Below are positions 4,537-43,471 of a DNA stretch of 64,000 bases, piece by piece; the stretch's first letter is position 1; the number at the start of each line of letters is the position of its first letter. This DNA is from Halomarina oriensis (lineage in GTDB: Archaea > Halobacteriota > Halobacteria > Halobacteriales > Haloarculaceae), in contig NZ_WSZK01000034.1 in NCBI RefSeq assembly GCF_009791395.1, positions 1-64,000 on the forward strand. Direction: 5' to 3'. The notes under the pieces are model-generated. The model had not been told where the DNA came from, did no database searches, and saw nothing but the letters and a program-made list of their open reading frames with translations. A program made the position numbers and the translations under genes.

Positions 4537-6231
4537 ATGACGTCCTCACAGTCCGACCTCGACAGGCGGTGGTGGAAGGAAGCGGTCGTCTACCAGATCT
4601 ACCCGCAGAGCTTCGACGACACGACCGGTGACGGTATCGGCGACTTACAGGGGATACTCGACCGTCTGGACTACCTCGACGAGTTGGGTGTCGACGTGCT
4701 CTGGCTCAACCCCGTCTACGACTCGCCACACCACGACGACGGCTACGACGTCCGTGACTACCGCGCGATTCGGGAGGCCTACGGCGACATGGACGACTGG
4801 AACGAACTGCTCGAGGCGGTCCACGACCGAGGGATGAAGCTCATCATGGACCTCGTCGTCAACCACACCAGCGACGAACACGCGTGGTTCGTCGAGGCCC
4901 GCGAGACCCCCGACGGCGAGTATCGGGACTACTACGTCTGGCGAGAGGGCGAAACGGACGCCGACGGGAACCGGGGGCCGCCGAACAACTGGGAGTCGGG
5001 GTTCGGCGGGTCGGCGTGGGAGTACGACGAACCGAGCGGCGAGTACTACCTCCACCTCTTCGACGTCCACCAACCGGATCTGAACTGGGAGAACCCGACC
5101 GTCCGCGAGGAGGTGTACGACATGATGCGCTGGTGGCTGGAGAAGGGTATCGACGGCTTCCGGATGGACGTCGTCAACGTGCTCTCGAAGCCCCAGGAGT
5201 TCCCGGACGACGACCCGAACCGGGGATGGGTCGGGATGGGGCACGTCAGCGACGGGCCGCGACTCGACGAGTTCCTGGGCGAGATGGCCACGGAGACGTT
5301 CGACCGCCACGAGACGATGTCGGTCGCCGAGATGCCCGAGGCGACGCTCGAACAGGCCCGACGCCTCACAGGCGTCGACGGGCCGCTCGACATGGTCCTC
5401 CACTTCGAGCACGTCACGCTCGACTACCACGACGAGGACGGCTGGTGGACCGTCCGTGACATCCCCCTCCCGGAGTTCAAGCGGGTCATCACGCGCTGGC
5501 AGACCGGACTCGACGAGGGGTGGAACGCCGTCTACCTCGGCAACCACGACCAGCCACGCATCGTCTCGCGGTTCGGAGACGACGACGAGTTCCGCTACGA
5601 GTCCGCGACGCTCCTCGCCACGCTGCTGTTGACGCTCCGTGGCACGCCGTTTCTCTTCCAGGGCGACGAGATCGGGATGTCGAATTACCCGTTCGAGTCG
5701 CTCGAAGAGATGGCCGACGCCCAGACGCTCGGCAACGTCGAGACGGCCATCGCCGAGGGCCGCATCGACGACTTCGAGGAGGTGAAAGAGCTCGTCCGCT
5801 ACCGCTCGCGGGACAACGCCCGGACGCCGATGCAGTGGGACGACTCCGAACACGCGGGGTTCACCGACGGCGACCCGTGGCTCCCGGTCAACCCGAACTA
5901 CGCCGAGGTGAACGTCGCGGCGGCCCGTGCCGACCCCGACTCCGTCTTCCACTACTACCGGAGACTCGTCGACCTGCGCCACGACGAGGAGACGCTCGTC
6001 TACGGCGAGTACGACCTGCTGCTCCCCGACCACGAACGCGTGTTCGCCTACACCCGAACGCTCGGTGACGACCGGTGGGTGGTCGTCCTGAACGTGGCCG
6101 CCGAACCGACGCGCGTCGACCTCCCCAAAGTCGCCGCCGCCGACTTCGTCGTCGGTAACGACGGCCGTCCCGACGACGCGGACGAACGACTCGACCTGCG
6201 GCCCTACGAAGCACGGGTCTATCGGGGGTGA
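4537..6231 (+). CDS. GH13 alpha-glucosidase / oligo-1,6-glucosidase
   Basis: 564-residue intracellular glycoside hydrolase, with no signal peptide, that releases glucose from short alpha-glucans. The GH13 core is complete: DLVVNHTS (about 105-112), catalytic nucleophile Asp211 in GFRMDVVN, acid/base Glu265 in VAEMPE and transition-state Asp338 in GNHD. The residue after the nucleophile is Val212. In characterised oligo-1,6-glucosidases and isomaltases Val at this place goes with alpha-1,6 activity, whereas Ala or Thr goes with alpha-1,4, so isomalto-oligosaccharides are a reasonable guess. The start at 4537 was chosen because of the TATA spacing; an in-frame codon at 4456 would add 27 residues unlike the family. 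It is divergent from gdh and precedes a PfkB kinase. Confidence 0.92.
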   Translation: MTSSQSDLDRRWWKEAVVYQIYPQSFDDTTGDGIGDLQGILDRLDYLDELGVDVLWLNPVYDSPHHDDGYDVRDYRAIREAYGDMDDWNELLEAVHDRGMKLIMDLVVNHTSDEHAWFVEARETPDGEYRDYYVWREGETDADGNRGPPNNWESGFGGSAWEYDEPSGEYYLHLFDVHQPDLNWENPTVREEVYDMMRWWLEKGIDGFRMDVVNVLSKPQEFPDDDPNRGWVGMGHVSDGPRLDEFLGEMATETFDRHETMSVAEMPEATLEQARRLTGVDGPLDMVLHFEHVTLDYHDEDGWWTVRDIPLPEFKRVITRWQTGLDEGWNAVYLGNHDQPRIVSRFGDDDEFRYESATLLATLLLTLRGTPFLFQGDEIGMSNYPFESLEEMADAQTLGNVETAIAEGRIDDFEEVKELVRYRSRDNARTPMQWDDSEHAGFTDGDPWLPVNPNYAEVNVAAARADPDSVFHYYRRLVDLRHDEETLVYGEYDLLLPDHERVFAYTRTLGDDRWVVVLNVAAEPTRVDLPKVAAADFVVGNDGRPDDADERLDLRPYEARVYRG

Positions 6232-6336: not shown

Positions 6337-7299
6337 ATGACCCACCGACCCGACGTCCTCGTCGCCGGCGAGACGCTCGTCGACTTCCTCCCCGGTTCGG
6401 CCGGCCCGCTGGCGAGCGTCGAACGGTTCACCAGACGCCCCGGCGGTGCGCCGGCGAACGTCGCCGTCGGCCTGGCGACGCTCGGCCACGCGCCGTGGTT
6501 CTGGACGCGCGTGGGAGCGGACCCGTTCGGCGACCTGCTCGCCGAGACGCTCGCCGACCACGGCGTGCCCGACCGGTTCGTCGAACGCGACCCCGAGGCG
6601 AAGACGACGCTCGCGTTCGTCGAACACGACGACGCGAAGGACCGTGCGTTCACGTTCTACCGCGACGGGACCGCCGACACCCGCCTCCGGCCGGGGACGG
6701 TCCCCGACGGAGTGCTCGCGTCGGTCGGGTGGGTGTACGTCGGTGGTGTCGCACTCGCCTCCGGGTCGTCACGGGAAGCGACGTTCGACCTCGTCGAACG
6801 CGCACGCGAGCGGGGAGCGATGGTCGTCTTCGACCCGAACGCCCGCCCGGAACTGTGGGACGACGACTTCGCGGCGGTCGCCACCCGCGCGCTCGAGGCC
6901 ACGGACGTCGTGAAGGCGACGCCGGAGGACCTCGCGGCGGTCGGGTTGGAGGGGTCTCCCGCGGCGCTCGCGGAGGCCGTCCTCGACGGTGGCCCGCACA
7001 CCGCTCTGGTGACGCGCGGGGCGAAGGGGGCACACGCGTCGTCGACGGCCGACGCGCCCTGGGGGGCCGACACCGTCGACCACGCCGGCTACCCGGTCGA
7101 CCCGGTCGATACGACCGGTGCGGGTGACGCGTTCACGGCGGGGGCGCTCGCGGCGCTCGTCGACGGCGAGTCGCTCCCGGAGGTCCTCGCGTTCGCCAAC
7201 GCCGTCGCCGCGGTGACGACGACGGCCGAAGGGGCGATGACCGCACTCCCCGACCGAGGGGCCGTCCGAGCGTTCCGGAGCGACCGTGACGGCGCGTGA
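6337..7299 (+). CDS. PfkB-family sugar kinase, fructokinase/ketohexokinase-like
   Basis: 320-residue ribokinase-fold enzyme that phosphorylates a sugar with ATP. PfkB signature 1 is GGAPANVAVGLATLG (36-50), and signature 2, with the catalytic Asp, is DTTGAGDAFTAG near residue 250. The N-terminus (GETLVDFLPG) and the GGAPANVA block look like haloarchaeal fructokinases rather than 2-keto-3-deoxygluconate kinases, though KDG kinase cannot be excluded given the neighbouring gdh, gapN-like and pyk genes. It follows the glucosidase by 105 bp and has its own TATA. If it is a fructokinase, a sucrose-type substrate for the cluster is possible. The assignment to the kinase family is firm; the substrate is not. 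Confidence 0.85.
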   Translation: MTHRPDVLVAGETLVDFLPGSAGPLASVERFTRRPGGAPANVAVGLATLGHAPWFWTRVGADPFGDLLAETLADHGVPDRFVERDPEAKTTLAFVEHDDAKDRAFTFYRDGTADTRLRPGTVPDGVLASVGWVYVGGVALASGSSREATFDLVERARERGAMVVFDPNARPELWDDDFAAVATRALEATDVVKATPEDLAAVGLEGSPAALAEAVLDGGPHTALVTRGAKGAHASSTADAPWGADTVDHAGYPVDPVDTTGAGDAFTAGALAALVDGESLPEVLAFANAVAAVTTTAEGAMTALPDRGAVRAFRSDRDGA

Positions 7300-11757: not shown

Positions 11758-12885
11758 TCAGTCCACGTCGACCCACTCGCCCGCGTCGTCGCTGCGCTCG
11801 ACGGCGTCGAGCACGCGCTGGACGGCGAGGGCGTCCTCGAAGTCCGGGTGGAACGCCTCGTCCCCATCGATGGCGGAGAGGAACTCGGAGTTCTCGTGGA
11901 CGAACGTGTGCTCCCAGCCGACGACGTGGCCCGGCGGCCACCAGTGGTCGATGTACGGGTCGGACTCGTCGGTGACCAGCACCGTCTCGTAACCCCGTGC
12001 GTCGCCCGTCTGGACCTCCAGTTCGTTGAGCCGTTCGAGCGAGAACCGGAGGCTCCCCTCGGTGCCGTGGAGCGTGATCGTGTGGTCGTTCGCGTGGCCC
12101 GTCGCCACACGGGAGGCCTCGAACGTCCCCATCGCGCCCGACTCGTACTCTGCCTGTGCGGAGTAGGCGTCGTCGACGGTCACCTCGCGCGATTCGTCCA
12201 CACCCTCGACGGGTCGTCGCTCGGTGAACGTCCGGAGGTGGCCCGACAGTCGCTCGACTTCGCCGACGTGGTCGCCGACGAGGAAGCGCGCGAGGTCGAC
12301 GGTGTGTGCCCCGAGGTCACCGAGTGCGCCCGACCCGGCCATCTCCTCGTCGTTGCGCCACGACCACGGGGCCTCGGGGTCGGCCAGCCAGTCTTGCATG
12401 TAGCGCCCGCGAACGTGGCTGATGTCGCCGAGTTCGCCCGCGTCGACGAGGCGCTTCGCGTAGCGAATCGCGGGCACGAACCGGTAGTTGAACGCACACG
12501 CGGCGTGTGCGTCGCTGTCGCGGGCGGCCTCGGCCATCCGTTCGGCCCCGTCGAGCGTCGGCGCGAGCGGTTTCTCACAGAGCACGTTCGTCCCCGCTTC
12601 GAGCGCCGTCACCGTGGGTTCGACGTGGAGGTGGTTCGGCCCGAGGTTGTAGAAGACGTCCACGTCGTCGACGACGTCGCGCCAATCGGTGGCCGTCTCG
12701 GCGAACCCGAATCGGTCGGCGGCGGCCGCCAGCGCGGACTCGTCGCGCCCGACGAGAACCGCCCGTTCGGTTTCGGGGGCGTCCGGGAAGAACATCGGCA
12801 ACCGAGCGAGGGCGTTGGCGTGGGCCTTGCCCATGAACCGGTAGCCGAGGAAGCCGACGCGAAGCGGGGGAGAGGTGTCACTCAT
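11758..12885 (-). CDS. Gfo/Idh/MocA-family oxidoreductase
   Basis: 375-residue NAD(P)-dependent sugar or polyol dehydrogenase. The Rossmann motif is VGFLGYRFMGKAHA (10-23), and the conserved EKP motif with the catalytic Lys is at 104-106 (CEKPLAPT). GDLGAHTVDL, with the Asp-x3-His pair, sits in the C-terminal sheet domain. It is last in a minus-strand set running from 15.03 kb (Gfo/Idh/MocA, TIM-barrel isomerase, this gene), with 6 bp between it and the isomerase. The pattern of two such dehydrogenases with a xylose-isomerase-like protein is common in inositol, rare-sugar and 3-keto-glycoside pathways. Substrate not identifiable from sequence alone. Confidence 0.88.
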   Translation of the reverse strand: MSDTSPPLRVGFLGYRFMGKAHANALARLPMFFPDAPETERAVLVGRDESALAAAADRFGFAETATDWRDVVDDVDVFYNLGPNHLHVEPTVTALEAGTNVLCEKPLAPTLDGAERMAEAARDSDAHAACAFNYRFVPAIRYAKRLVDAGELGDISHVRGRYMQDWLADPEAPWSWRNDEEMAGSGALGDLGAHTVDLARFLVGDHVGEVERLSGHLRTFTERRPVEGVDESREVTVDDAYSAQAEYESGAMGTFEASRVATGHANDHTITLHGTEGSLRFSLERLNELEVQTGDARGYETVLVTDESDPYIDHWWPPGHVVGWEHTFVHENSEFLSAIDGDEAFHPDFEDALAVQRVLDAVERSDDAGEWVDVD

Positions 12886-12891
12886 CGGTGG

Positions 12892-13854
12892 TCACTCCGC
12901 CCAGTACGCCTCGCCCGGTTGCGTCTCGAACACCGCGCGGTCGAGCAGTTCGACCGCCTTCTCCAGTCCCTCGCGGGAACTGGTCAGGGAGTCCTCGTGT
13001 TCGATGGAGAGCGCCCCGTCGTAGCCGACCATCCGGAGCGTCGAGACGAGGTCCTTCCAGTGGCTCTCGCCGTGGCCGTAGCCCACGCTCCGGAAGAGCC
13101 ACGAGCGCTCGGGTTCCTCGCGGTAGTCGGTCGTGTCGAGGACGCCCTTCACGCGGCTGTTGGCCTCGTAGACCTTCGTGTCCTTCGCGTGGACGTGGTG
13201 GATGGCGTCCCCGAGGAAGCGGACCGCCTCGGTGACGTCGATACCCTGCCAGTAGAGGTGAGAGGGGTCGAAGTTCGCGCCGAGACGCTCGCTGGTCGCG
13301 TCACGGAGTCGCTGCATCCCGTGGGGTTCGTAGACGAGCATGTTGGGGTGCATCTCGATGGCGACGTCGACGCCGTGGTGGTCGGCGTGGGCCGCGAGGT
13401 CAGACCAGTACTCCGTGGCGACCGCCCACTGGTAGTCGTGGGCGTCGGCGTGTTCACCCGGCCACGGTGCGGTCACCCAGTTGGGCACCTCGTCGTTCGG
13501 TCCGCCCGCCGGGAGCCCCGAGAAGCAGGTGACGGTGTCCACGCCGAGTTGGTCGGCCAGTCGGACGGCCTCGCGCAACTCCGTGTCCGCGCTCTCGGCA
13601 CGGCTCTCGTCGGGGTGGAGCGGGTTGTTGTGGGTCGCCAGCGCGCTCACACGGGTGTCGTACTCGTCGAGCGTGTCGTGTAACTCGGCCTGGGCGTCCT
13701 CGTCGTCGAGCAACGCCTCGCGGGGCAGGTGGTCGTCGCCGGGGAACCCGCCACAGCCGAGTTCGACGGTCCCGACACCGAGGGCCGAGAGGTACGCGAG
13801 CGTGTCGTCGAGCGACTCATCGCCGAAGGGGACGGTCAGTACGCCGATGTCCAT
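12892..13854 (-). CDS. Sugar phosphate isomerase/epimerase family TIM-barrel protein
   Basis: 320-residue AP-endonuclease-2 / xylose-isomerase-like barrel. It has the expected metal-binding positions in strands ending ELGCGG, AIEMHPN, NFDPSHL, HVHAKDT and SIEHED. Such proteins isomerise, epimerise or dehydrate sugars and inositols. The start is the ATG at 13854 (MDIGVLTVPFGD); a longer open frame upstream overlaps the neighbouring gene and is not family-like. It lies between two Gfo/Idh/MocA dehydrogenases, 6 bp and 32 bp from them, in one probable operon. The substrate is unknown. Confidence 0.87.
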   Translation of the reverse strand: MDIGVLTVPFGDESLDDTLAYLSALGVGTVELGCGGFPGDDHLPREALLDDEDAQAELHDTLDEYDTRVSALATHNNPLHPDESRAESADTELREAVRLADQLGVDTVTCFSGLPAGGPNDEVPNWVTAPWPGEHADAHDYQWAVATEYWSDLAAHADHHGVDVAIEMHPNMLVYEPHGMQRLRDATSERLGANFDPSHLYWQGIDVTEAVRFLGDAIHHVHAKDTKVYEANSRVKGVLDTTDYREEPERSWLFRSVGYGHGESHWKDLVSTLRMVGYDGALSIEHEDSLTSSREGLEKAVELLDRAVFETQPGEAYWAE

Positions 13855-13886
13855 ACGACCGCTACTCGGAACGGGTAGGTAAAACC

Positions 13887-15032
13887 TCAGTCCGTCGTCT
13901 CGACCTGGACCGCACTCGGCTGGTCGACCGGGTCGTCGAGTCGGACCGCACGGCCAGTCTCCGAGGACTCGTAGATGGCGTCGATGACGCGCTGGACGGC
14001 GAGTCCCTCCTCGACGGTGACCGGCGCGGGGCCGTCGTTCCGAACCGCGTCGACGAACCGGCGTTGCTCGGCGCGGTGTCCGTTCTCGCCACGCGTCGTG
14101 ACTTGCGAGTCGGAGAAATGTGCCGCACCGAGGTCGCTCGTCTCGAACAGTTCCAACTCGTCGTCGACGTGGTTGTACGTCGCCCCCGCCTCCGTCCCGC
14201 GGACGACGATGTCGCTGTTCGGTGGCCGGTTCGACGCCCAGGCGACCTCCAGCGAGATAGTCTGGCCGTCCGCACAGCGAAGCAGTGCGGTCGCGGAGTC
14301 CTCGACGTCGACCGTACCGTCGCCGGACGACCCCCACTGGTCGATGTAGGTGTAGTCCTCGTCCGTGCCGAAGGCGTCGCGCGTGACTCCCGACACCTCG
14401 ACGACCTCCGGATACCCCAGCACGTACAGCGCGAAGTCGATGGCGTGGGTTCCGATGTCGACGAGTGCGCCGCCGCCCGCGACGGCGTGACTCGTGAACC
14501 AGGAGCCACGGCCGGGGACGCCACGCCGGCGGACGTAGTTCGCCTCGACGTGGTAGACGTCGCCGAACCGACCGTCGTCGAGACAGCCACGGAGGACCTG
14601 CGCGGGCGAACCGAAGCGGTTGTGGAAGCCGACCATACAGAACCCGTCGGCCCCACGCGCGGCGGCCGCGATGCGCTCGGCGCTCGCCAGGTCGTGTGCC
14701 AGCGGCTTCTCGACCAGCACGTCGAGTCCGGCGTCGAGGGCGGCGACCGCGTACTCCTCGTGGAAGCAGTTGGGCGTCGTGACGATGACCGCGTCGACGG
14801 CCTCGAACAGTTCGTGGTGGTCGCTGTACGTCTCCACGCCGAACTCCGCCTCGAACGACTCCCGTGCCTCGGCGGCGATGTCCATCCCACCGACGAGCGT
14901 CACGGCCTCCTCCTCGTCGATGACCCGGAGTTGGTTCGCGTGGTGCCGGCCGATGTTTCCGAGTCCGACGAGTCCGAGTCGGACCGCCTCGCGCTCGATT
15001 AGTTCAGTAGTGGTCTCGTTCGTGTGCCCCAT
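13887..15032 (-). CDS. Gfo/Idh/MocA-family oxidoreductase
   Basis: 381-residue NAD(P)-dependent dehydrogenase and first gene of the three-gene minus-strand cluster. The Rossmann motif is LVGLGNIGRHHA (about 21-32). The EKP motif occurs in VLVEKPLAHD, and DIGTHAIDFALYVLG is the conserved His-containing helix. The start was set at the ATG at 15032 (MGHTNETT); 11 more codons are open upstream but are arginine-rich and non-homologous in look. It is divergent from the CNNM/CorC-like gene across a 387 bp spacer. It belongs to the same superfamily as the 11.8-12.9 kb gene but clearly differs from it, so the two probably act on different intermediates. Confidence 0.88.
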   Translation of the reverse strand: MGHTNETTTELIEREAVRLGLVGLGNIGRHHANQLRVIDEEEAVTLVGGMDIAAEARESFEAEFGVETYSDHHELFEAVDAVIVTTPNCFHEEYAVAALDAGLDVLVEKPLAHDLASAERIAAAARGADGFCMVGFHNRFGSPAQVLRGCLDDGRFGDVYHVEANYVRRRGVPGRGSWFTSHAVAGGGALVDIGTHAIDFALYVLGYPEVVEVSGVTRDAFGTDEDYTYIDQWGSSGDGTVDVEDSATALLRCADGQTISLEVAWASNRPPNSDIVVRGTEAGATYNHVDDELELFETSDLGAAHFSDSQVTTRGENGHRAEQRRFVDAVRNDGPAPVTVEEGLAVQRVIDAIYESSETGRAVRLDDPVDQPSAVQVETTD

Positions 15033-15190
15033 TCGTACTCTCTGCGACCGGCTACAACGAGTCACCGAAAGAGGGTTGCGGAACGTCCGCGAAAGCTGAC
15101 AGTTCAGAAGACGGAACGACCGGACTCCGAGGAATGGCGACCGGGACCGGTGCTCACGGTGGGCGTGGAAGACACCGCGACGGGTCGTGC

Positions 15191-18007: not shown

Positions 18008-18208
18008 TCAGTACAGCTGTTGTTCCGTCTGTTCGCGTTCCTCCTGTCGCTCCGCTTCGGCCTGCTGCTGTTGCCGACCGCGCCGGTACTGCCGCAGGCC
18101 GGGGACGAGCCGGTGGCGAACGTCTCGGACGAACGAGACGATGCCGTATATCCAGAAGAAAAACAGCAGCGTCCCGCCACCGAAGTAGAGGAGTGCTGCC
18201 GTCTCCAT
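18008..18208 (-). CDS. Small single-pass membrane protein coupled to the ABC operon
   Basis: 66-residue protein whose ATG overlaps the stop codon of the upstream ABC ATPase gene by one base, so the two should be translationally coupled. Residues 5-28 form one hydrophobic helix (AALLYFGGGTLLFFFWIYGI). The rest is a very polar cytoplasmic tail, basic at first (VRDVRHRLVPGLRQYRRGR) and then Gln/Glu-rich (about 46-66), possibly a short coiled coil. I do not recognise a named family. Being last in a sugar ABC operon suggests an accessory or anchoring subunit for the transporter, but that is inference. It is well under 100 codons and easily missed by gene finders. Confidence 0.72.
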   Translation of the reverse strand: METAALLYFGGGTLLFFFWIYGIVSFVRDVRHRLVPGLRQYRRGRQQQQAEAERQEEREQTEQQLY

Positions 18209-19389
18209 CAGTCGTCGCTCCCCGCTTCGGCCTCCTCGGTCGTCGAGTCTCGGGACGTCGGGTTCACCAGTCCGTGCTGGATGGCGTCGCCCGTCTCGCT
18301 GTCGAAGAGGTGAATCTTCGCACGGTCGAGGACGACCTGGATGTCCTGGTCGACGTCCACGTCGCTGTCGGGCGAGACGCTCATGAGCAACTGACCGGCC
18401 TCCGCGGCCTCGAAGTCCATCTCGATGTCCTCCTGGGTCACGAGGTAGACGAATATCTCGTCGCCCATCGGCTCGGTGACGTCCGTCCGGGCGTCGATAC
18501 GCATCGAGGGGTGGCCGACGGACTCGCGCTGGTCGACCGGGTAGACGTCCTCGGGACGGACCCCGAGCGTGACGTGGTCCCCCGGTGAGACGCCCATCCG
18601 CGCGGGGTCGAACTCGATGTCGAAGCTGTCGGAGGTGAACCCCGACTCCGTGACGTCTCCCGTCGTGAAGTTCATCGACGGCGACCCGATGAAGCCGGCG
18701 ACGAACAGGTTCGCCGGTTCGTTGTAACAGACCAGCGGCGGGTCGATCTGCTGGAGTTCGCCGGAGTCGATGACCGCGATGCGGTCGGACATCGTCATCG
18801 CCTCGGCCTGGTCGTGGGTGACGTAGATGATGGTCGTCTCCAACTCCTTGTGCAGGCGCTGGAGCTCCGTCCGCATGTGGACGCGCAGTTTCGCGTCCAG
18901 GTTGGCGAGCGGTTCGTCCATCAGGAACACGTCCGGGTTGCGCACGATGGCCCGGGCAATGGCGACACGCTGGCGCTGCCCGCCGGACATCTCGTCGGGC
19001 ATGCGTTCGAGCATCCCCTCCAGTTGGACGATGTCCGAGGCGCGCTCGACGCGCCGGTCTATCTCCTCCGAATCGTACTTCCGGAGTCGCAGGCCGAAGG
19101 AGATGTTGTCCTTGACGTTCATGTGCGGGAACAGCGCGATGTTCTGGAACACCATCGCTACCCCGCGGTCTTTCGGCGGCAGTCGGGTGACCTCGCGGTC
19201 GCCGATCCACACCTCGCCCTCCGTCGGGAGCGTCAGTCCGGCGATGGTCTCCATCGTCGTGGACTTCCCACACCCCGAGGGGCCGACGAGGCAGACGAAC
19301 TCCCCGTCTCTGATGTCGAGGTTCATGTCGTCGACTGCGGTGACGTCCTCGTAGCGTTTCGTGACGTGTTCGAGTTTGACTCGTGCCAT
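18208..19389 (-). CDS. Sugar ABC transporter ATP-binding protein (MalK/MsmX/UgpC type)
   Basis: 393-residue ATPase of the CUT1 carbohydrate importer family. Walker A is GPSGCGKST, the Q-loop VFQNIALFPH, the signature MSGGQRQRVAIARA, Walker B DVFLMDEPLANLD and the switch His is in YVTHDQAEAMTM. The C-terminal regulatory TOBE/OB region (about 240-370) is the part that in MalK receives regulatory input. The start codon overlaps the stop of the upstream permease by one base. Operon order of transcription is binding protein, two permeases, ATPase, small membrane protein. It is a paralog of the ATPase at 42.3-43.5 kb, so the two transporters have separate ATPases. Confidence 0.93.
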   Translation of the reverse strand: MARVKLEHVTKRYEDVTAVDDMNLDIRDGEFVCLVGPSGCGKSTTMETIAGLTLPTEGEVWIGDREVTRLPPKDRGVAMVFQNIALFPHMNVKDNISFGLRLRKYDSEEIDRRVERASDIVQLEGMLERMPDEMSGGQRQRVAIARAIVRNPDVFLMDEPLANLDAKLRVHMRTELQRLHKELETTIIYVTHDQAEAMTMSDRIAVIDSGELQQIDPPLVCYNEPANLFVAGFIGSPSMNFTTGDVTESGFTSDSFDIEFDPARMGVSPGDHVTLGVRPEDVYPVDQRESVGHPSMRIDARTDVTEPMGDEIFVYLVTQEDIEMDFEAAEAGQLLMSVSPDSDVDVDQDIQVVLDRAKIHLFDSETGDAIQHGLVNPTSRDSTTEEAEAGSDD

Positions 19390-20339
19390 TATTCTTTCAG
19401 TGCTCCTGCGGTCAGGCCGCTGACGATGCGTTCCTGGGCGACGATGACGAGAATCGCGACGGGGAGGACCCCGATGATGCTCGCCGCGGCGAACAGGTTG
19501 AACGACGTGGTGTACTGCGTCTGGTAGCTCAGGATACCGCCCACGAGCGGCGACCACTGGGTGTAGTCGTTCCCGAGCGCCATGATTTGCGAGAAGAAGT
19601 ACTCGTTGTACACGCTGATAAAGGTTAGCACGCCCGCGGTCGCCACACCGGGTGCCGACAGCGGGATGATCACCCTAAAGAGCGCGCCGATACGGGTCGT
19701 CCCCTCGACGCGAGCGGCGTCCTCCAGTCCGTCCGGGATCTGCCCGTAGAACGTCGTGAGGACGAATATCGAGAGCGGCAAGAACAGCGCGCTGAACGGC
19801 AACACCATCGCTGCCGGCGTGTTGATGAGCCGTGGCGGCGTGAACAGCGCTATCTCGGTGAACGGGACGACGATGGGTGAGTTGCCGGTGAAGATGTCGA
19901 ACAGCGGGACGACGAACGCCGCCGGTGGGAAGTAGCTGATGGCGAGGATGAGCAACATCAGCACGCCACGGCCGGGGAACTCCAGTCGGCCGAAGACGTA
20001 GCCCGCGAAACTGGCGATGAACAGGACGATGACCGTCGTCACTGTCGCCAGGATGAAGCTGTTCAGCATGTAGAAGTGGAACGGCACCTGCTGGAACACC
20101 TCCACGAACGCGTAGACGTTGAACCCCTCCGGAACCAGGCCGATACCGTTCAGAATCTCGTTGTTCGGCGTCAGCGCCAGCACGATGAGCCAGTAGAACG
20201 GGAACATCGTGGTGACGATGAAGAAGATGGCGGCGACGTAGAACATCGCCCGGTACGTCCGCTCCGGGTTCCGAATCGAACGGCTCGCCCAGCGGTTGAG
20301 CGGCCCGTCCGAGGTCTTGGAGTCCGACTCCGTCGCCAT
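19389..20339 (-). CDS. Sugar ABC transporter permease (MalG type)
   Basis: 316-residue inner component of the importer with about six transmembrane helices. The cytoplasmic EAA loop, EDAARVEGTTRIGALFRVIIP, docks onto the ATPase. The extended loop after helix 2 and the C-terminal GLTAGALKE ending are typical of MalG/UgpE-type CUT1 permeases. One base separates it from the upstream permease gene and it overlaps the ATPase start by one base. Confidence 0.92.
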   Translation of the reverse strand: MATESDSKTSDGPLNRWASRSIRNPERTYRAMFYVAAIFFIVTTMFPFYWLIVLALTPNNEILNGIGLVPEGFNVYAFVEVFQQVPFHFYMLNSFILATVTTVIVLFIASFAGYVFGRLEFPGRGVLMLLILAISYFPPAAFVVPLFDIFTGNSPIVVPFTEIALFTPPRLINTPAAMVLPFSALFLPLSIFVLTTFYGQIPDGLEDAARVEGTTRIGALFRVIIPLSAPGVATAGVLTFISVYNEYFFSQIMALGNDYTQWSPLVGGILSYQTQYTTSFNLFAAASIIGVLPVAILVIVAQERIVSGLTAGALKE

Positions 20340-20340
20340 C

Positions 20341-21327
20341 TCAGAACCCCTCCCGGTACTGCTGGTAGATGATGACGCTGACTACCGCAGCGATGATGAT
20401 GGCCGTCACGAACGCGATGACCGCCGCCACCTCGGTGTTGATACCGAGGTTGGCGACGACCATGCAGGACAGCGACGGCACGACCTCACACTTCGAGGTC
20501 GTGTCGATGACACCGTAGACGCGCATCGCCGCCACCGTGCGAAACAGGATGGCGACCCCGATGGTCGGCAGGACCAGCGGGAACGTGATGAGCTTGAACT
20601 GCTGCCACTTCGAGGCTCCCGCGACCTTCGCCACGTTGTAGAGCGAGCGGTCGATGCTCTGGAGACCCGCGAGGATGAGCAGCGCCATGAACGCCGACGT
20701 CTTCCAGATGTCGGCGATCATGACGATGAACAGCGAACTCCACGGGTCGTTGAGCGTGTTCGTCCCCTCGATGATGCCGAGGTCCGCGAGGAACGGCGTC
20801 GCGAAGCCGATGTTCGGCTGGAACATCAGCAGGAAGATCATCCCCTGGATGACGATGGGTACCGCCCACGGGATGATGATGGCGACGCGCACCCACCGCC
20901 GGCCACGGAAGTCCTGGTCGAGGACGAGCGCCTGCCCGAGACCGATGACGGTCTCGAACAGCACCGTCACCGCGGTGAAGATGAGCGTGACCATCAGCGA
21001 ACTCCGGAGTATCGCGGTCAGCGACAGCGAGGACGGCAGGAACGTCGTCGTCCCCGGTAAGAACCCGTTGAGGCCGCCGTCGAACAGCGCGACGTAGTTC
21101 TCGAGGCCGATGAACTGCGGGTCCGTGTACGGGTCGGCGAACATCGACAGCTCCAGCGTCCGCAACAGCGGGTAGAACGCGATGGCACCGAGGATGACGA
21201 ACACCGGTGTCAACAGCAGGTACGCGAACGCCGTCTCGCCGAGGTTCTCGACCCAGCGAGTGACGCCGGAGAGCGCACCGCCGCTCCCGGACTCCCGTCG
21301 TCTGTCCGCGGCTGTATCCGTGCTCAT
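20341..21327 (-). CDS. Sugar ABC transporter permease (MalF type)
   Basis: 328-residue permease with a cytoplasmic N-terminal arm, a first helix near residues 35-55 (FAYLLLTPVFVILGAIAFYP) and five further helices. The EAA-loop region is RSLYNVAKVAGASKWQQFKLITFPLV. The N-terminal LTPVF...PLLRTLELSMF stretch is typical of MalF/UgpA-like CUT1 permeases. It lies 4 bp after the binding protein stop and 1 bp before the next permease, in a tight operon. Confidence 0.92.
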   Translation of the reverse strand: MSTDTAADRRRESGSGGALSGVTRWVENLGETAFAYLLLTPVFVILGAIAFYPLLRTLELSMFADPYTDPQFIGLENYVALFDGGLNGFLPGTTTFLPSSLSLTAILRSSLMVTLIFTAVTVLFETVIGLGQALVLDQDFRGRRWVRVAIIIPWAVPIVIQGMIFLLMFQPNIGFATPFLADLGIIEGTNTLNDPWSSLFIVMIADIWKTSAFMALLILAGLQSIDRSLYNVAKVAGASKWQQFKLITFPLVLPTIGVAILFRTVAAMRVYGVIDTTSKCEVVPSLSCMVVANLGINTEVAAVIAFVTAIIIAAVVSVIIYQQYREGF

Positions 21328-21331
21328 GGCA

Positions 21332-22831
21332 TCAGGCGTTGTTCTCTATCTGCTCGATGGCACTCTGGAGGTCGCTCATCGCCTGGCTCGCCGACTTCGA
21401 CCCGGAGACGGCGTTGTTGGCCTCCTGTGCGATGGTCGACGACTCGTTCGGCCAGACCTGTGTCACCGGTCGTGGCATCGTGTTCTCGCCGGCGATACGC
21501 ATCGTCTCCATGTAGCCGCCGAGGACCGGCACCTCCTGTGCACGGTCGGAGTTGAACAGCGCCGGTTTCGGCGGGAGCCAGCCCTGAATCTCCAGCAGCG
21601 TCAACTGGAAGTCGTCCTGGGTCATCGCGGTGAGCACCTCGTAGACGGCCTCGAGGTTGTTGGAGTTCGGGTTGACCGTCGCGTGCCAGCCACCGAGTGC
21701 GGCCGTCGTGCCGCCGGTGCCCTGCTGGGACGCCTCGCTCTCGGACACCGCGTACGGGATGGGCATCGCGCCGTAGGCGTCGGTGCCGAGGGCGTCCTCC
21801 GCGGCGTTGAGCGCGATGGCGTACGGCCAGTTGCGCTGCATCACGGACTGGCCTTCGAGGATGGCGGTCCGTGCGTCCTCCTCTTGCCAGCCGGTGACGG
21901 CGTTGGGCATGATGCCGCCCGCGTAGCCGTCGAGCGCCTCGTCGTAGGCGTCCCCCTCGACGAACGTCCGCATCATCCGCAGGGAGTCGATGACCGGCTG
22001 TTCGTTGATGGTGACCGGGCGCTCGCCGACCGGCCCGAACAGGTTGCCCCGGCCGCCGAAGTACGCGCCGCCCCACGAGGAGAGCGCCTCGTTGAACGTA
22101 CAGCACGCCGTCCCCTCGTAGACGTCCCACTGGGTGACGAAGCCGTACTGCGTCTCGGTCTGTTCCTGGATGTCGGCGGTGATTTCGGACCACTCCTGCC
22201 AGGTCATCGGCTCGGTAGCCCACGTCTCGAAGTCCGAATCGCCGTAGCCGGCTTCCCGCGCGAAGTCCTTGCGGTACTGCATCGTCGGGAAGTCCGGGAA
22301 CACCGGCACGCCGAACAGGTTGTCGTTCTCCGGGTTCCGGGCCGTCGCGGTGAACCCCTCGAAGTAGTTGTTGTCGACGCTGTCGACGATGTCGCCCGGC
22401 GCGTTCTCCGTGAGGTTCAGGAGCCGGTCGTTCTGGATGAAGATGTTCACCCAGCCGTTGTCCATGAGGAACATGTCCGGCTGCGCCTCCCCGGCACGGA
22501 GGATACGGTTGTAGTTGTCCCGGCGTGTCCCGGTGTCCTGTGCGCCGGCGACGAGTTCGACGGTGATGTCGTCGGAGAGGCCGTTGTCGTGTAACGCCTG
22601 TTTGATGGCGTCGCCGTTGTCCTGTGCGGCCACCGGGTCGAACCCGAACTGCACGGTACCACCGCCGCCGCCGCCGCTGCCGTTCCCACCGCCACCACCG
22701 CCGCCACCGTCGCCGTAGATACAGCCGGCCAGTCCTGCCATCGCCCCGCTCGCACCGGCGGCTTTGACGAACGTTCGGCGAGAGACGGTCCGACCCCCTT
22801 CTCCACTGGTATGCGAACCCTTGTCGGGCAT
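21332..22831 (-). CDS. Sugar ABC transporter substrate-binding lipoprotein (Tat-exported)
   Basis: 499-residue extracellular solute-binding protein (family 1). The twin-arginine signal VSRRTFVKAAG (about 16-26) is followed by a lipobox ending LAGC with Cys37 as lipid anchor. A glycine-rich linker (about 41-58, encoded by a GGN-rich tract) then spans the surface layer. The mature part has the two-lobe SBP look, with aromatic residues that could stack on sugar. First gene of the operon. The ATG at 22831 is 27 bp from a TATATACC box, and a palindromic operator lies between the two. Substrate unknown: probably an oligosaccharide or sugar, by family and by the adjacent TrmB. Confidence 0.92.
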   Translation of the reverse strand: MPDKGSHTSGEGGRTVSRRTFVKAAGASGAMAGLAGCIYGDGGGGGGGGNGSGGGGGGTVQFGFDPVAAQDNGDAIKQALHDNGLSDDITVELVAGAQDTGTRRDNYNRILRAGEAQPDMFLMDNGWVNIFIQNDRLLNLTENAPGDIVDSVDNNYFEGFTATARNPENDNLFGVPVFPDFPTMQYRKDFAREAGYGDSDFETWATEPMTWQEWSEITADIQEQTETQYGFVTQWDVYEGTACCTFNEALSSWGGAYFGGRGNLFGPVGERPVTINEQPVIDSLRMMRTFVEGDAYDEALDGYAGGIMPNAVTGWQEEDARTAILEGQSVMQRNWPYAIALNAAEDALGTDAYGAMPIPYAVSESEASQQGTGGTTAALGGWHATVNPNSNNLEAVYEVLTAMTQDDFQLTLLEIQGWLPPKPALFNSDRAQEVPVLGGYMETMRIAGENTMPRPVTQVWPNESSTIAQEANNAVSGSKSASQAMSDLQSAIEQIENNA

Positions 22832-22914: not shown

Positions 22915-23997
22915 TCAAGCGTCGGGACCCCCACTCGAGCGAATCACACGTTCGACCGTGATAGTCGTCGCCTCCACCTCCTCGACGATAGCGCCCCAGC
23001 CGCCGACGCTCACCTCTCGTCCGTCCGTCTCGACCAGGAGCGTCACCTGGCCGGCGAGTTGGAGGACGCCGTCGGAGGCCGACCCGGGCGTGAAGCGGGT
23101 GCCGGTGACGCGGCCGTCGAACGAGACGGGGTCGCTGCTGGTGATGTCGAACCCTTCGACCCCCACCTCGACCGTCGCTCCCTCGTCGAGGAGGCCACGG
23201 ACGTCGCGGACGCAGTACCGGATGTCGACGTACTTGACCGGTGGCTCCCCCGTCGGTTCGGCGTACAGCGGGTCGCAGTGCTCCCACAGCGAGGTCATGA
23301 AGTACCAGTGGAAGACGTAGGTGTGCGTTCGGTCGTCGACGACGACGCCGTAGAGGTCGTAGGAGTCGGGATGGTGTGCGAAACACGTCTGGTGACGGTC
23401 GACGAGCGCGACGAACGGTGCCGGGAGTCCGCGGTGGCGTGCCTCGGTACACGCCCCCCGTAGTCGGTCGAGAGCCGGCGGTTCGCCGGCGGGGTCGGTG
23501 TGGATGGAGAGCCGAATCGAGACGCCACGGTCGTGAGCGTTCATCAGCGCCGGGCGGAGCCGCTCGAAGTGTGTCGGTGTGACCGAGAGCTGAATCTGGT
23601 TCGTCGCCGACGAGATGAACTCCTCGGCCCGCTTGAGGACGATACCGAACTCCCGGACGATGGTCGCGTGGTTCCCTTCGAGTTCGGGTTGCTCCCAGCG
23701 CTCTTCGACCTCTTGGGCGGCCGCGTCGAGGCGTTCGGCACGGCCACGGAGCGTCGACAGCACCTCGTCGGGGCTGTGTGCGCTCGCACGGAGCGAGTCG
23801 TTCTGGTAGGTCTCGACGAACCCGCGGCTCTCGAGCGCGTCGAGCACGTCGTAGATACGAGGTTTCGGGACGTCGCTGGCCGCCGCGAGTTCCGTCGCCG
23901 ACGCCGTGCCGAGGTCGAGCAACGTGACGTACGCTGTGGCCTGGTACGGCGACAGCCCCGCGTCCTCCAGCGTGGCCACGAGTTCCTCGGAGTCCAT
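22915..23997 (-). CDS. TrmB-family regulator, probable repressor of the adjacent ABC operon
   Basis: 360-residue regulator. The N-terminal winged helix (MDSEELVATLEDAGLSPYQ, then ASDVPKPRIYDVLDALESRG) has the TrmB signature. A phospholipase-D-like sensor domain (about 105-265) follows, then a beta-rich C-terminal domain (about 275-350). A coiled segment with the predicted recognition helix and linker lies at 70-105. It is 83 bp upstream of the binding-protein gene on the same strand, the standard arrangement of TrmB with its target transporter. An open frame continues upstream to 24420, but the reading there is the antisense of the AKR gene; the ATG at 23997 gives the family N-terminus. The inducer is presumably the transported sugar. 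Confidence 0.88.
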   Translation of the reverse strand: MDSEELVATLEDAGLSPYQATAYVTLLDLGTASATELAAASDVPKPRIYDVLDALESRGFVETYQNDSLRASAHSPDEVLSTLRGRAERLDAAAQEVEERWEQPELEGNHATIVREFGIVLKRAEEFISSATNQIQLSVTPTHFERLRPALMNAHDRGVSIRLSIHTDPAGEPPALDRLRGACTEARHRGLPAPFVALVDRHQTCFAHHPDSYDLYGVVVDDRTHTYVFHWYFMTSLWEHCDPLYAEPTGEPPVKYVDIRYCVRDVRGLLDEGATVEVGVEGFDITSSDPVSFDGRVTGTRFTPGSASDGVLQLAGQVTLLVETDGREVSVGGWGAIVEEVEATTITVERVIRSSGGPDA

Positions 23998-42343: not shown

Positions 42344-43471
42344 TCAGGCTTCGATCGGTTCTCGCTGTCTGGTCTCGAGGAGCGACTCGCCCGTCTCGGC
42401 GTCGAAGAGGTGGATGGCCGACGACGGGACGTCGACGAGCACCTCCTCGCCCGGTTCCGGTTCGACCGCGGCGTCGACACGCGCGATGAAGTCGTCGCCG
42501 ATGTCGAGGTGGAGATAGTTGTCCGCACCGACCGGTTCGACCACCTCGACCGTCGCCGGAATCGCACCGCTCGTACCGGCGTCGACGACGGTGACCGACT
42601 CGGGCCGGATGCCGACGGTCACCTCGTCATGGCCCTGCAACGCGTCGAGCAGGCGCTGGTCGGTGACGTCGTACTCGAAGGTTCCGGCCTCGTCGACGAG
42701 AGTCGTCCGACCGGCGTCGGTGAAGACACCGACCGCCAGGAAGTTCATGCTCGGCGAGCCAACGAACCCGCCGACGAAGCGGTTGCGCGGGTTGCGGTAG
42801 ACCGACTTCGGGGCACCGCTCTGCTGGAGTTCGCCGTCGTTGAGGATGACGATGCGGTCGCCCATCGTCATCGCCTCCTCCTGGTCGTGGGTGACGTAGA
42901 CGGCGGTGATGTCGAGTTCGTTCTGGAGGCGCTGAATCTCGGTCCGCATCGTCGTCCGCAGTTTCGCGTCGAGGTTGCTGAGCGGTTCGTCGAAGAGGAA
43001 CACGTCCGGTTCGCGGACGATGGCGCGGCCGAGCGCGACACGCTGTTTCTGCCCGCCCGAGAGCTCCGCGGGCTGCTGGTCGAGTAACTCCTCGATGTCC
43101 ATCATCTCGGCGGTCTCGCGGACGCGCCGGCGGCGTTCGTCCTTCGAGAGGTCCGTCGACATCCGGAGGCCGAACGCCATGTTCTGTTCGACGGTCTTGT
43201 GCGGGTAGAGCGCGTAGTTCTGGAACACCATCGCGACGTCGCGGTCGCGTGCGTGGACGTCGGTGACGTCCTCGTCACCGATGGAGATGCGACCGGCGGT
43301 GGGCCGTTCGAGTCCCGCGACCATCCGGAGCGTCGTCGACTTCCCACAACCGGAGGGACCGACGACGGTGACGAACTCGCCGTCGGCGACCTCCAGCGAC
43401 AGGTCGTCGACGGCGACGATCTGACCGCCGTCGAACTCCTTTCTGAGTGATTCGAGCGTGAGCGTCGCCAT
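42344..43471 (-). CDS. Sugar ABC transporter ATP-binding protein (MalK/UgpC type)
   Basis: 375-residue CUT1 ATPase. Walker A is GPSGCGKSTT, the signature LSGGQKQRVALGRA, Walker B DVFLFDEPLSNLD and the H-loop YVTHDQEEAMTM; the C-terminal TOBE/OB domains are complete. It is transcribed away from the binding-protein and permease genes that it must energise, sharing the 165 bp divergent promoter region with them. A palindrome between its TATA and its ATG suggests repression. Given the flanking glucoamylase and alpha-amylase, maltose or maltodextrin is the likely cargo. Confidence 0.93.
   Translation of the reverse strand: MATLTLESLRKEFDGGQIVAVDDLSLEVADGEFVTVVGPSGCGKSTTLRMVAGLERPTAGRISIGDEDVTDVHARDRDVAMVFQNYALYPHKTVEQNMAFGLRMSTDLSKDERRRRVRETAEMMDIEELLDQQPAELSGGQKQRVALGRAIVREPDVFLFDEPLSNLDAKLRTTMRTEIQRLQNELDITAVYVTHDQEEAMTMGDRIVILNDGELQQSGAPKSVYRNPRNRFVGGFVGSPSMNFLAVGVFTDAGRTTLVDEAGTFEYDVTDQRLLDALQGHDEVTVGIRPESVTVVDAGTSGAIPATVEVVEPVGADNYLHLDIGDDFIARVDAAVEPEPGEEVLVDVPSSAIHLFDAETGESLLETRQREPIEA

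Follow-up and report, generated by a model that had tools for sequence, protein, structure and literature searches.

A small single-helix protein encoded downstream of the ATPase in haloarchaeal sugar importer operons of the CUT1 type: a candidate accessory subunit

In Halomarina oriensis, an operon for a CUT1-type sugar importer ends with a gene for a 66-residue protein, ORF66, which we consider likely (probability roughly 0.7) to serve one branch of the haloarchaeal CUT1 importers as an accessory subunit. A part in the importer is favored by its constant company with the importer genes, the usually tight spacing, purifying selection, its specificity for one ATPase and its decay beside a ruined transporter. 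The first-pass annotation had suggested a haloarchaeal accessory subunit outside the classical CUT1 set, and this suggestion is now well supported by inference, since ORF66 follows the ATPase gene in many genomes of the order. The gene is genuine and conserved, and on the present searches it appears unstudied: none of the papers listed from an open-access library deals with its product, and both family copies in NZ_CP007056.1 are annotated "hypothetical protein".

ORF66 and the operon that encodes it

The window, i.e., the whole stretch of DNA analyzed, comprises 64,000 nucleotides, and the features discussed here are collected in Table 1. Translation confirmed that the predicted ORF consists of 66 codons with an ATG start and a stop, and also that it overlaps the end of the ATPase gene by one base, as had been claimed: the TGA of the ATPase gene and the ATG of ORF66 have one base in common (TGATG). 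There is a single hydrophobic stretch (approximately residues 6-28), and an AlphaFold2 model made with an alignment of 82 sequences (A2) consists of one helix from residue 2 to 65, with a mean pLDDT of 78.7 and the highest values in the membrane part (block mean of 92 for residues 11-20); both agree with the one membrane helix of the first-pass annotation. The Gln/Glu-rich tail described there is found in the window copy but not in the family consensus, which is Arg/Glu-rich, and the Gln richness is thus local to the window copy. Lysine or arginine precedes the LFFFW motif in only one of the 82 rows (L058), and the 20 residues after the hydrophobic core contain at least four such residues (mean 6.8). 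With the positive-inside rule, this distribution predicts that the N-terminus lies outside and the tail in the cytoplasm.

Table 1. Features of the ORF66 operon in the window
Feature	Position	Strand	Basis or description
ORF66	18008..18208	minus	Last gene of operon; 66-residue single-helix protein
ORF66 transmembrane core, ~residues 6-28	18125..18193	minus	LFxFWxYG and F26 (D29 next); conservation in 82 sequences, helix prediction
ORF66 C-terminal QLY, residues 64-66	18011..18019	minus	Alignment A2 (82 sequences)
MalK/UgpC-type CUT1 ATPase	18208..19389	minus	Walker A, MSGGQ, GVRPED CUT1 motif
MalG-like permease	19389..20339	minus	Resemblance; carbohydrate ABC permease annotated at equivalent place in Halostagnicola
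MalF-like permease	20341..21327	minus	Resemblance and Halostagnicola annotation
Substrate-binding protein	21332..22831	minus	Resemblance and Halostagnicola annotation
TrmB-type regulator, start approximate	22915..23990	minus	Position and resemblance; TrmB annotated at equivalent place in NZ_CP007056.1

The operon is a five-gene run on the minus strand, encoding a substrate-binding protein (SBP), MalF-like and MalG-like permeases, a MalK/UgpC-type ATPase and ORF66; the gene set of a CUT1 importer, i.e., an SBP, a pair of permeases and a single ATPase within the same cluster, is thereby present. The ATPase carries the motifs GPSGCGKST, MSGGQ and GVRPED, the last of which fits G[IV]RPE[DH], the CUT1 ATPase motif as defined in PMC11519228. 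It exceeds the Pfam cut-offs for ABC_tran and OB_MalK, and scores 420 bits against the UgpC subfamily model, slightly below the cut-off of 432. The host genome contains 16 ABC ATPases that match it at E ≤ 1e-30, and ORF66 follows this one only (1.0-1.5 kb read); the genome holds one clear copy of ORF66. A second MalK-type ATPase in the window (42380-43471, minus strand; approximately 46-50% identity) has no ORF66 behind it.

Further along the window (11758-15065, minus strand), two Gfo/Idh-like oxidoreductase genes flank a TIM-barrel sugar isomerase-like gene (identified by eye); these genes, a few kb from the operon, are possibly catabolic partners of the importer. In Haloarcula argentinensis (L076), lookalikes of TrmB, Gfo/Idh and glucose dehydrogenase genes (again by eye) flank the same five-gene order. 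In Haloarcula hispanica, according to PMC10817205, genes for a carbohydrate ABC transporter and glucose-1-dehydrogenase have a TrmB gene upstream of them; we do not equate this cluster with that of L076. In Halostagnicola, a ThuA gene is annotated near the operon of the main subfamily. Such neighbors give hints to the substrate only, and we claim no particular sugar.

Distribution, conservation and genomic place of the family

Within the genus, clear homologues of ORF66 were found in six of eight genomes, including the window's own, with E values of at most 1.6e-19; a tally of seven of eight counts the host genome and one chance-level match (E 0.92). The relatives in the five other genomes are 49-73% identical, and all six copies can start at most 11 bases from the stop of a long frame with ABC motifs. 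The first-pass annotation would have been refuted if homologous ATPase genes in relatives had no similar ORF behind them, and it clearly survived this check. An order-wide scan found ORF66 in 165 of 392 genomes (E ≤ 0.01) and 46 of 95 genera, mostly behind MalG and the ATPase, one of the 165 (G073, E 0.0025) being unconfirmed by a larger profile. A scan of named genomes gave 71 loci, in Haloferax, Haloarcula, Halorubrum, Natronorubrum, Haladaptatus, Halorussus and others. Of 392 genomes sampled across the phylum, with an unlisted share from outside the order, 25 matched, and all of these belong to the same order.

The sequences are under purifying selection, with dN/dS values of 0.038-0.471 (median 0.087) in 17 pairs; these remained from 18 hand-picked pairs after one of unequal length had been left out, and two of them have dS above 1.4, near saturation. 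Ten residues (L15, F16, F18, W19, Y21, G22, F26, D29, P36 and L65) are invariant in all 82 sequences of A2, and Y8, F17, I23, R45, E57, R58, E62, Q64 and Y66 are nearly so. At the C-terminal QLY, Q occurs in 81, L in 82 and Y in 76 of the 82 (replaced by L in five and H in one). Departures outside A2 include F16 to Y in L161, L168 and L169, FLPW in place of FFFW in L173, and a terminal GLY in L167. Tails differ across the family in composition and, to some degree, in length: the middle is replaced in L062 and L086, with the helix and the EEQLY or ERQLY end kept, and the C-terminus is altered or lost in L074 (Haloquadratum), L108 and L110. The helical moment of conservation, an uncalibrated measure to which we give no weight, is 0.30 for residues 15-28 and 0.08 for the tail. 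The window copy shows every mark of the family, i.e., the LFxFWxYG core, D29, P36, a C-terminal QLY/L and a place behind a CUT1 ATPase.

Searches of Pfam, NCBIfam and the PDB gave no significant match, the lowest E value shown over 82 Pfam scans being 0.0035, with matches scattered over unrelated families. A profile of the 82 members retrieved two PDB sequences at E ≤ 10, neither of them a Ccm protein. The best PDB match, 8de3 (E 0.17), was rejected as kin: it is a resemblance over 16 residues in a 539-residue chain named "Transporter".

Ninety-four non-redundant operons show the complete gene order MalF, MalG, ATPase, ORF66. In 36 of them the start of ORF66 overlaps the ATPase stop; in the others it follows that stop by 0-10 bases (37 operons), by 11-60 bases (nine) or by more than 60 bases (12), with 230 bases as the largest gap; starts were picked by rule, and single cases may be off. 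Thus, 73 of the 94 starts lie between 11 bases before and 10 bases after the stop. Eight of the 12 gaps above 60 bases are in Haloferax loci. Close spacing is therefore common but not universal in the family. According to PMC6728339, coupling was strict in 13 of 14 overlapping stop-start pairs tested in Haloferax volcanii and E. coli. Together with those data, the stop-start overlaps make translational coupling of ORF66 to the ATPase likely where the genes overlap, as they do in the window; the coupling claimed in the first-pass annotation is to that extent likely, but it is not universal in the family.

We then related the places of ORF66 to those of MalG, using 150 places listed order-wide for each. 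In 128 of these cases a MalG listed on the same strand lies 1168-1488 bases upstream of ORF66; this distance leaves room for one ATPase gene, whose presence is presumed from the spacing and not from case-by-case inspection. The other 22 were inspected singly: 17 have the whole operon (SBP-MalF-MalG-ATPase-ORF66) with the ATPase adjoining ORF66, two abut an ATPase at a contig end, one is cut by a contig end, one is that of genome G101 and one is an orphan (L155). Twenty-two of the MalG places have no listed ORF66; when 20 of these were examined, 14 proved to have one outside the 150 listed and six had none, two of the six also being without a detected ATPase. Counted by genome (n = 392), 163 have ORF66 with a close MalG, two ORF66 only (G073 and G101), 100 MalG only and 127 neither (Fisher p = 2e-36, ignoring kinship among genomes).

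Three loci depart from the usual arrangement. In a Halosimplex-type locus (L199; G282:C1:2596000-2606000), the family member (5503-5710) lies directly behind MalG, and the ATPase is at the other end of the cluster, set apart by a membrane protein-like gene. L155 (G140:C63:32000-41500) has a full-length ORF66 at 6520-6721, preceded by what appears by eye to be repetitive sequence; no operon gene was detected in the surrounding 9.5 kb, and genome G140 is 77% complete. In G101 (L159; G101:C1:1683000-1692500), ORF66 (6755-6956) has R for the otherwise invariant core W and C for the last Y, the match of the adjacent ATPase starts only at residue 101 of 393, and no permease was found near ORF66 or, at E ≤ 1e-70, anywhere in the genome. 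This one case is decay of ORF66 beside a ruined transporter.

We also noted that a TIM-barrel-like gene and a second MalG follow the family member in L199, and that this locus (775-1738) and the Haloferax locus L089 (7477-8277) each encode, near sugar ABC operons, a protein with an RCxPCTAxN motif and hydrophobic stretches.

Probable losses and a second subfamily

To this point the operons described mostly contain ORF66. We also collected 29 regions around MalG from 25 genomes, 24 chosen for having no listed ORF66 and one (G194) with it listed. Twenty-seven of these regions lack ORF66, that of G194 (L133) has it, and L132 (G281:C1:240462-250397) carries a decayed remnant at approximately 6633-6747, behind the ATPase gene. 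Two sets of SBP, MalF and MalG genes (L175 and L180) had neither ATPase nor ORF66 detected in the stretch fetched.

The order MalF-MalG-ATPase was found in 123 non-redundant operons, with an SBP segment alongside in 122. A midpoint-rooted tree of the three proteins was made from these 123 operons (94 with and 29 without ORF66), 11 of 141 loci having been left out for an incomplete gene set; operons without ORF66 were deliberately sought, and the sample is non-random. The presence of ORF66 on this tree requires at least six changes, five of them forced by well-supported branches, against a mean of 26.3 after shuffling. The simplest reading is that ORF66 would have been present early and lost several times, one loss covering most of a 23-row clade; single gains may also have occurred, e.g., in L157 inside the lacking clade. 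From this early presence and repeated loss it follows that ORF66 is modular and not indispensable.

A scan of the columns of SBP, MalF, MalG and ATPase found 13 that are conserved with ORF66 and different in at least two of the groups lacking it. Once phylogeny is taken into account, no ATPase or permease residue tracked the loss of ORF66. MalG G152 and F182 were considered as contacts tracking ORF66 and rejected, because L157 has ORF66 yet carries the residues of the lacking clade.

In nine of nine loci (L200-L208), a second subfamily with a short tail immediately follows the ATPase gene of a more divergent operon of the CUT1 type, whose ATPase is 56-63% and MalG 51-56% identical to those of the window. 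The helix core is kept, QLY is absent, and the proteins end in DPEEYL or DPEEYI in five of the nine and differently in the others. A profile of this subfamily gave 12 matches, each in a different genome, that rank ahead of the main family at E ≤ 7.6e-23, two of them (G332 and G233) being known from the profile match alone. The nine ATPases form one clade near the base of a tree with host-genome paralogues as outgroup, in which branches are long and support for the deeper fork is 73. In Halostagnicola larsenii both subfamilies occur, the main one amid TrmB, Gfo/Idh and ThuA genes and the second amid GH28 and IclR genes. Decayed family copies with no intact operon around them were seen in L198 and L211.

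Proposed role and comparison with known systems

How might ORF66 act? Seven of the nine residues from 15 to 23 vary little or not at all, which makes it probable that the helix packs among partner helices and does not face lipid on most sides. We suggest that ORF66 would be made in step with the ATPase, and that its helix would be set into or against the MalF/MalG bundle, with the charged part extending into the cytoplasm alongside the MalK dimer. At the inner face of the membrane, D29 and P36 may form one contact near the coupling region; the C-terminus may form another, with the ATPase or the cytoplasmic face of the permeases. In the main subfamily the C-terminal QLY would dock on a partner; since the C-terminus of the second subfamily differs, such docking would not be common to the whole family, and the C-terminal contact predicted there must be a different one. 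The likeliest effect would be to stabilize or tune the permease-ATPase assembly, and not sugar recognition, which is disfavored by the finding of two subfamilies amid different catabolic genes in one organism, i.e., Halostagnicola larsenii. An essential part in the transport cycle is disfavored because ORF66 is missing from many operons.

A more specific proposal, which we regard as tentative, is that ORF66 would be an early-arisen fifth CUT1 subunit, its helix a lever gripped by the permeases and its cytoplasmic end (QLY in the main subfamily) engaging the MalK dimer, setting ATP hydrolysis or assembly whatever sugar is carried. The first-pass annotation had spoken of an accessory subunit tethering or regulating the ATPase. 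The accessory subunit stands, by inference, but a tether or regulator of the ATPase is one option only and is not established, given the gene order in L199, the lack of any residue tracking the loss of ORF66, and its absence from four-gene operons. Against the subunit reading as a whole, the importer can exist without ORF66 (27 of 29 regions, mostly preselected), L199 places the family member after MalG, and L155 is an intact orphan.

A stabilizing or tuning subunit fits best. Its main rival, although unlikely, is a role in on/off control or turnover: ORF66 would inhibit or gate the importer, or else present it to a membrane protease or protect it from one, on the model of SgrT, AcrZ, MgtR/MgtS or sP36. 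The short single-helix form of ORF66, and its absence from operons that retain the four core genes, would suit such a role. However, the genes of these regulators are usually separate from those of their targets, whereas the start of ORF66 close to the ATPase stop in most operons suggests synthesis with the transporter and not conditional expression. Precedents are available, and small regulators of transporters are the subject of a review (PMC10710835). One is sP36, which PMC10714827 describes as a 61-residue archaeal protein that binds and controls AmtB1. Like ORF66 it is a small archaeal protein tied to a nutrient transporter; unlike ORF66 (and the two were compared by description only) it is dispersed in the cytoplasm until nitrogen upshift, acts with GlnK1 and serves another transporter class.

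It is considerably less probable that ORF66 acts outside the mature transporter, as an aid to the folding or insertion of MalF/MalG or as a membrane anchor for a pathway enzyme. The charged helix could bind a soluble partner, and several of the small number of clusters inspected (by eye or from annotation) have Gfo/Idh-like genes downstream, but the surroundings of the second subfamily in Halostagnicola differ while the core stays, making one common enzyme partner unlikely. Finally, short ORFs are frequent at this GC content (84 of at least 50 residues overlap 13 kb), but a chance ORF behind the ATPase gene with no functional product can be dismissed in view of the spread of the family, its low dN/dS and its invariant residues, this conservation speaking strongly against it.

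We return to the accessory subunit and its relation to known transporters. PMC11519228 describes the typical CUT1 transporter as four genes. Operons with ORF66 share with the classical systems (MalEFGK2 and, in haloarchaea, MscEFGK) the SBP, the pair of permeases and the single ATPase bearing the CUT1 motif, and differ from them in having a conserved fifth gene. The best reading by analogy is that ORF66 may work like CcmD in CcmABCD, with no detectable kinship: CcmD was absent from the PDB matches and from the best 25 of 42 weak Pfam families. The analogy has limits. The neighbors of ORF66 are sugar ABC genes and not ccmA, ccmB or ccmC; CcmD, unlike ORF66, serves haem transfer and starts with an amphipathic part in the periplasm; and no contact of the CcmD tail with the ATPase is seen in the structure of CcmABCD, a result that counts against extending the analogy to an ATPase contact of ORF66. 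Another unexpected extra subunit of an importer is LucB of the Mce1 lipid ABC transporter, a conserved membrane protein with a cytoplasmic C-terminal extension, as described in PMC9882608. LucB resembles ORF66 as an additional membrane protein of an ABC importer with a cytoplasmic C-terminal part; compared by description only, it differs in having at least four helices, in belonging to a different ABC class and in having had no MCE link before the structure.

Importers with ORF66 would thus be a version of an established transporter class that has an added small subunit, with a putative mechanism. CUT1 importers, described as systems of four genes, serve as a reference for ABC transport; if our reading is correct, ORF66 would add a part for control or assembly to the CUT1 model. 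The operons that naturally lack ORF66 offer ready-made comparisons, and some haloarchaea are genetically tractable.
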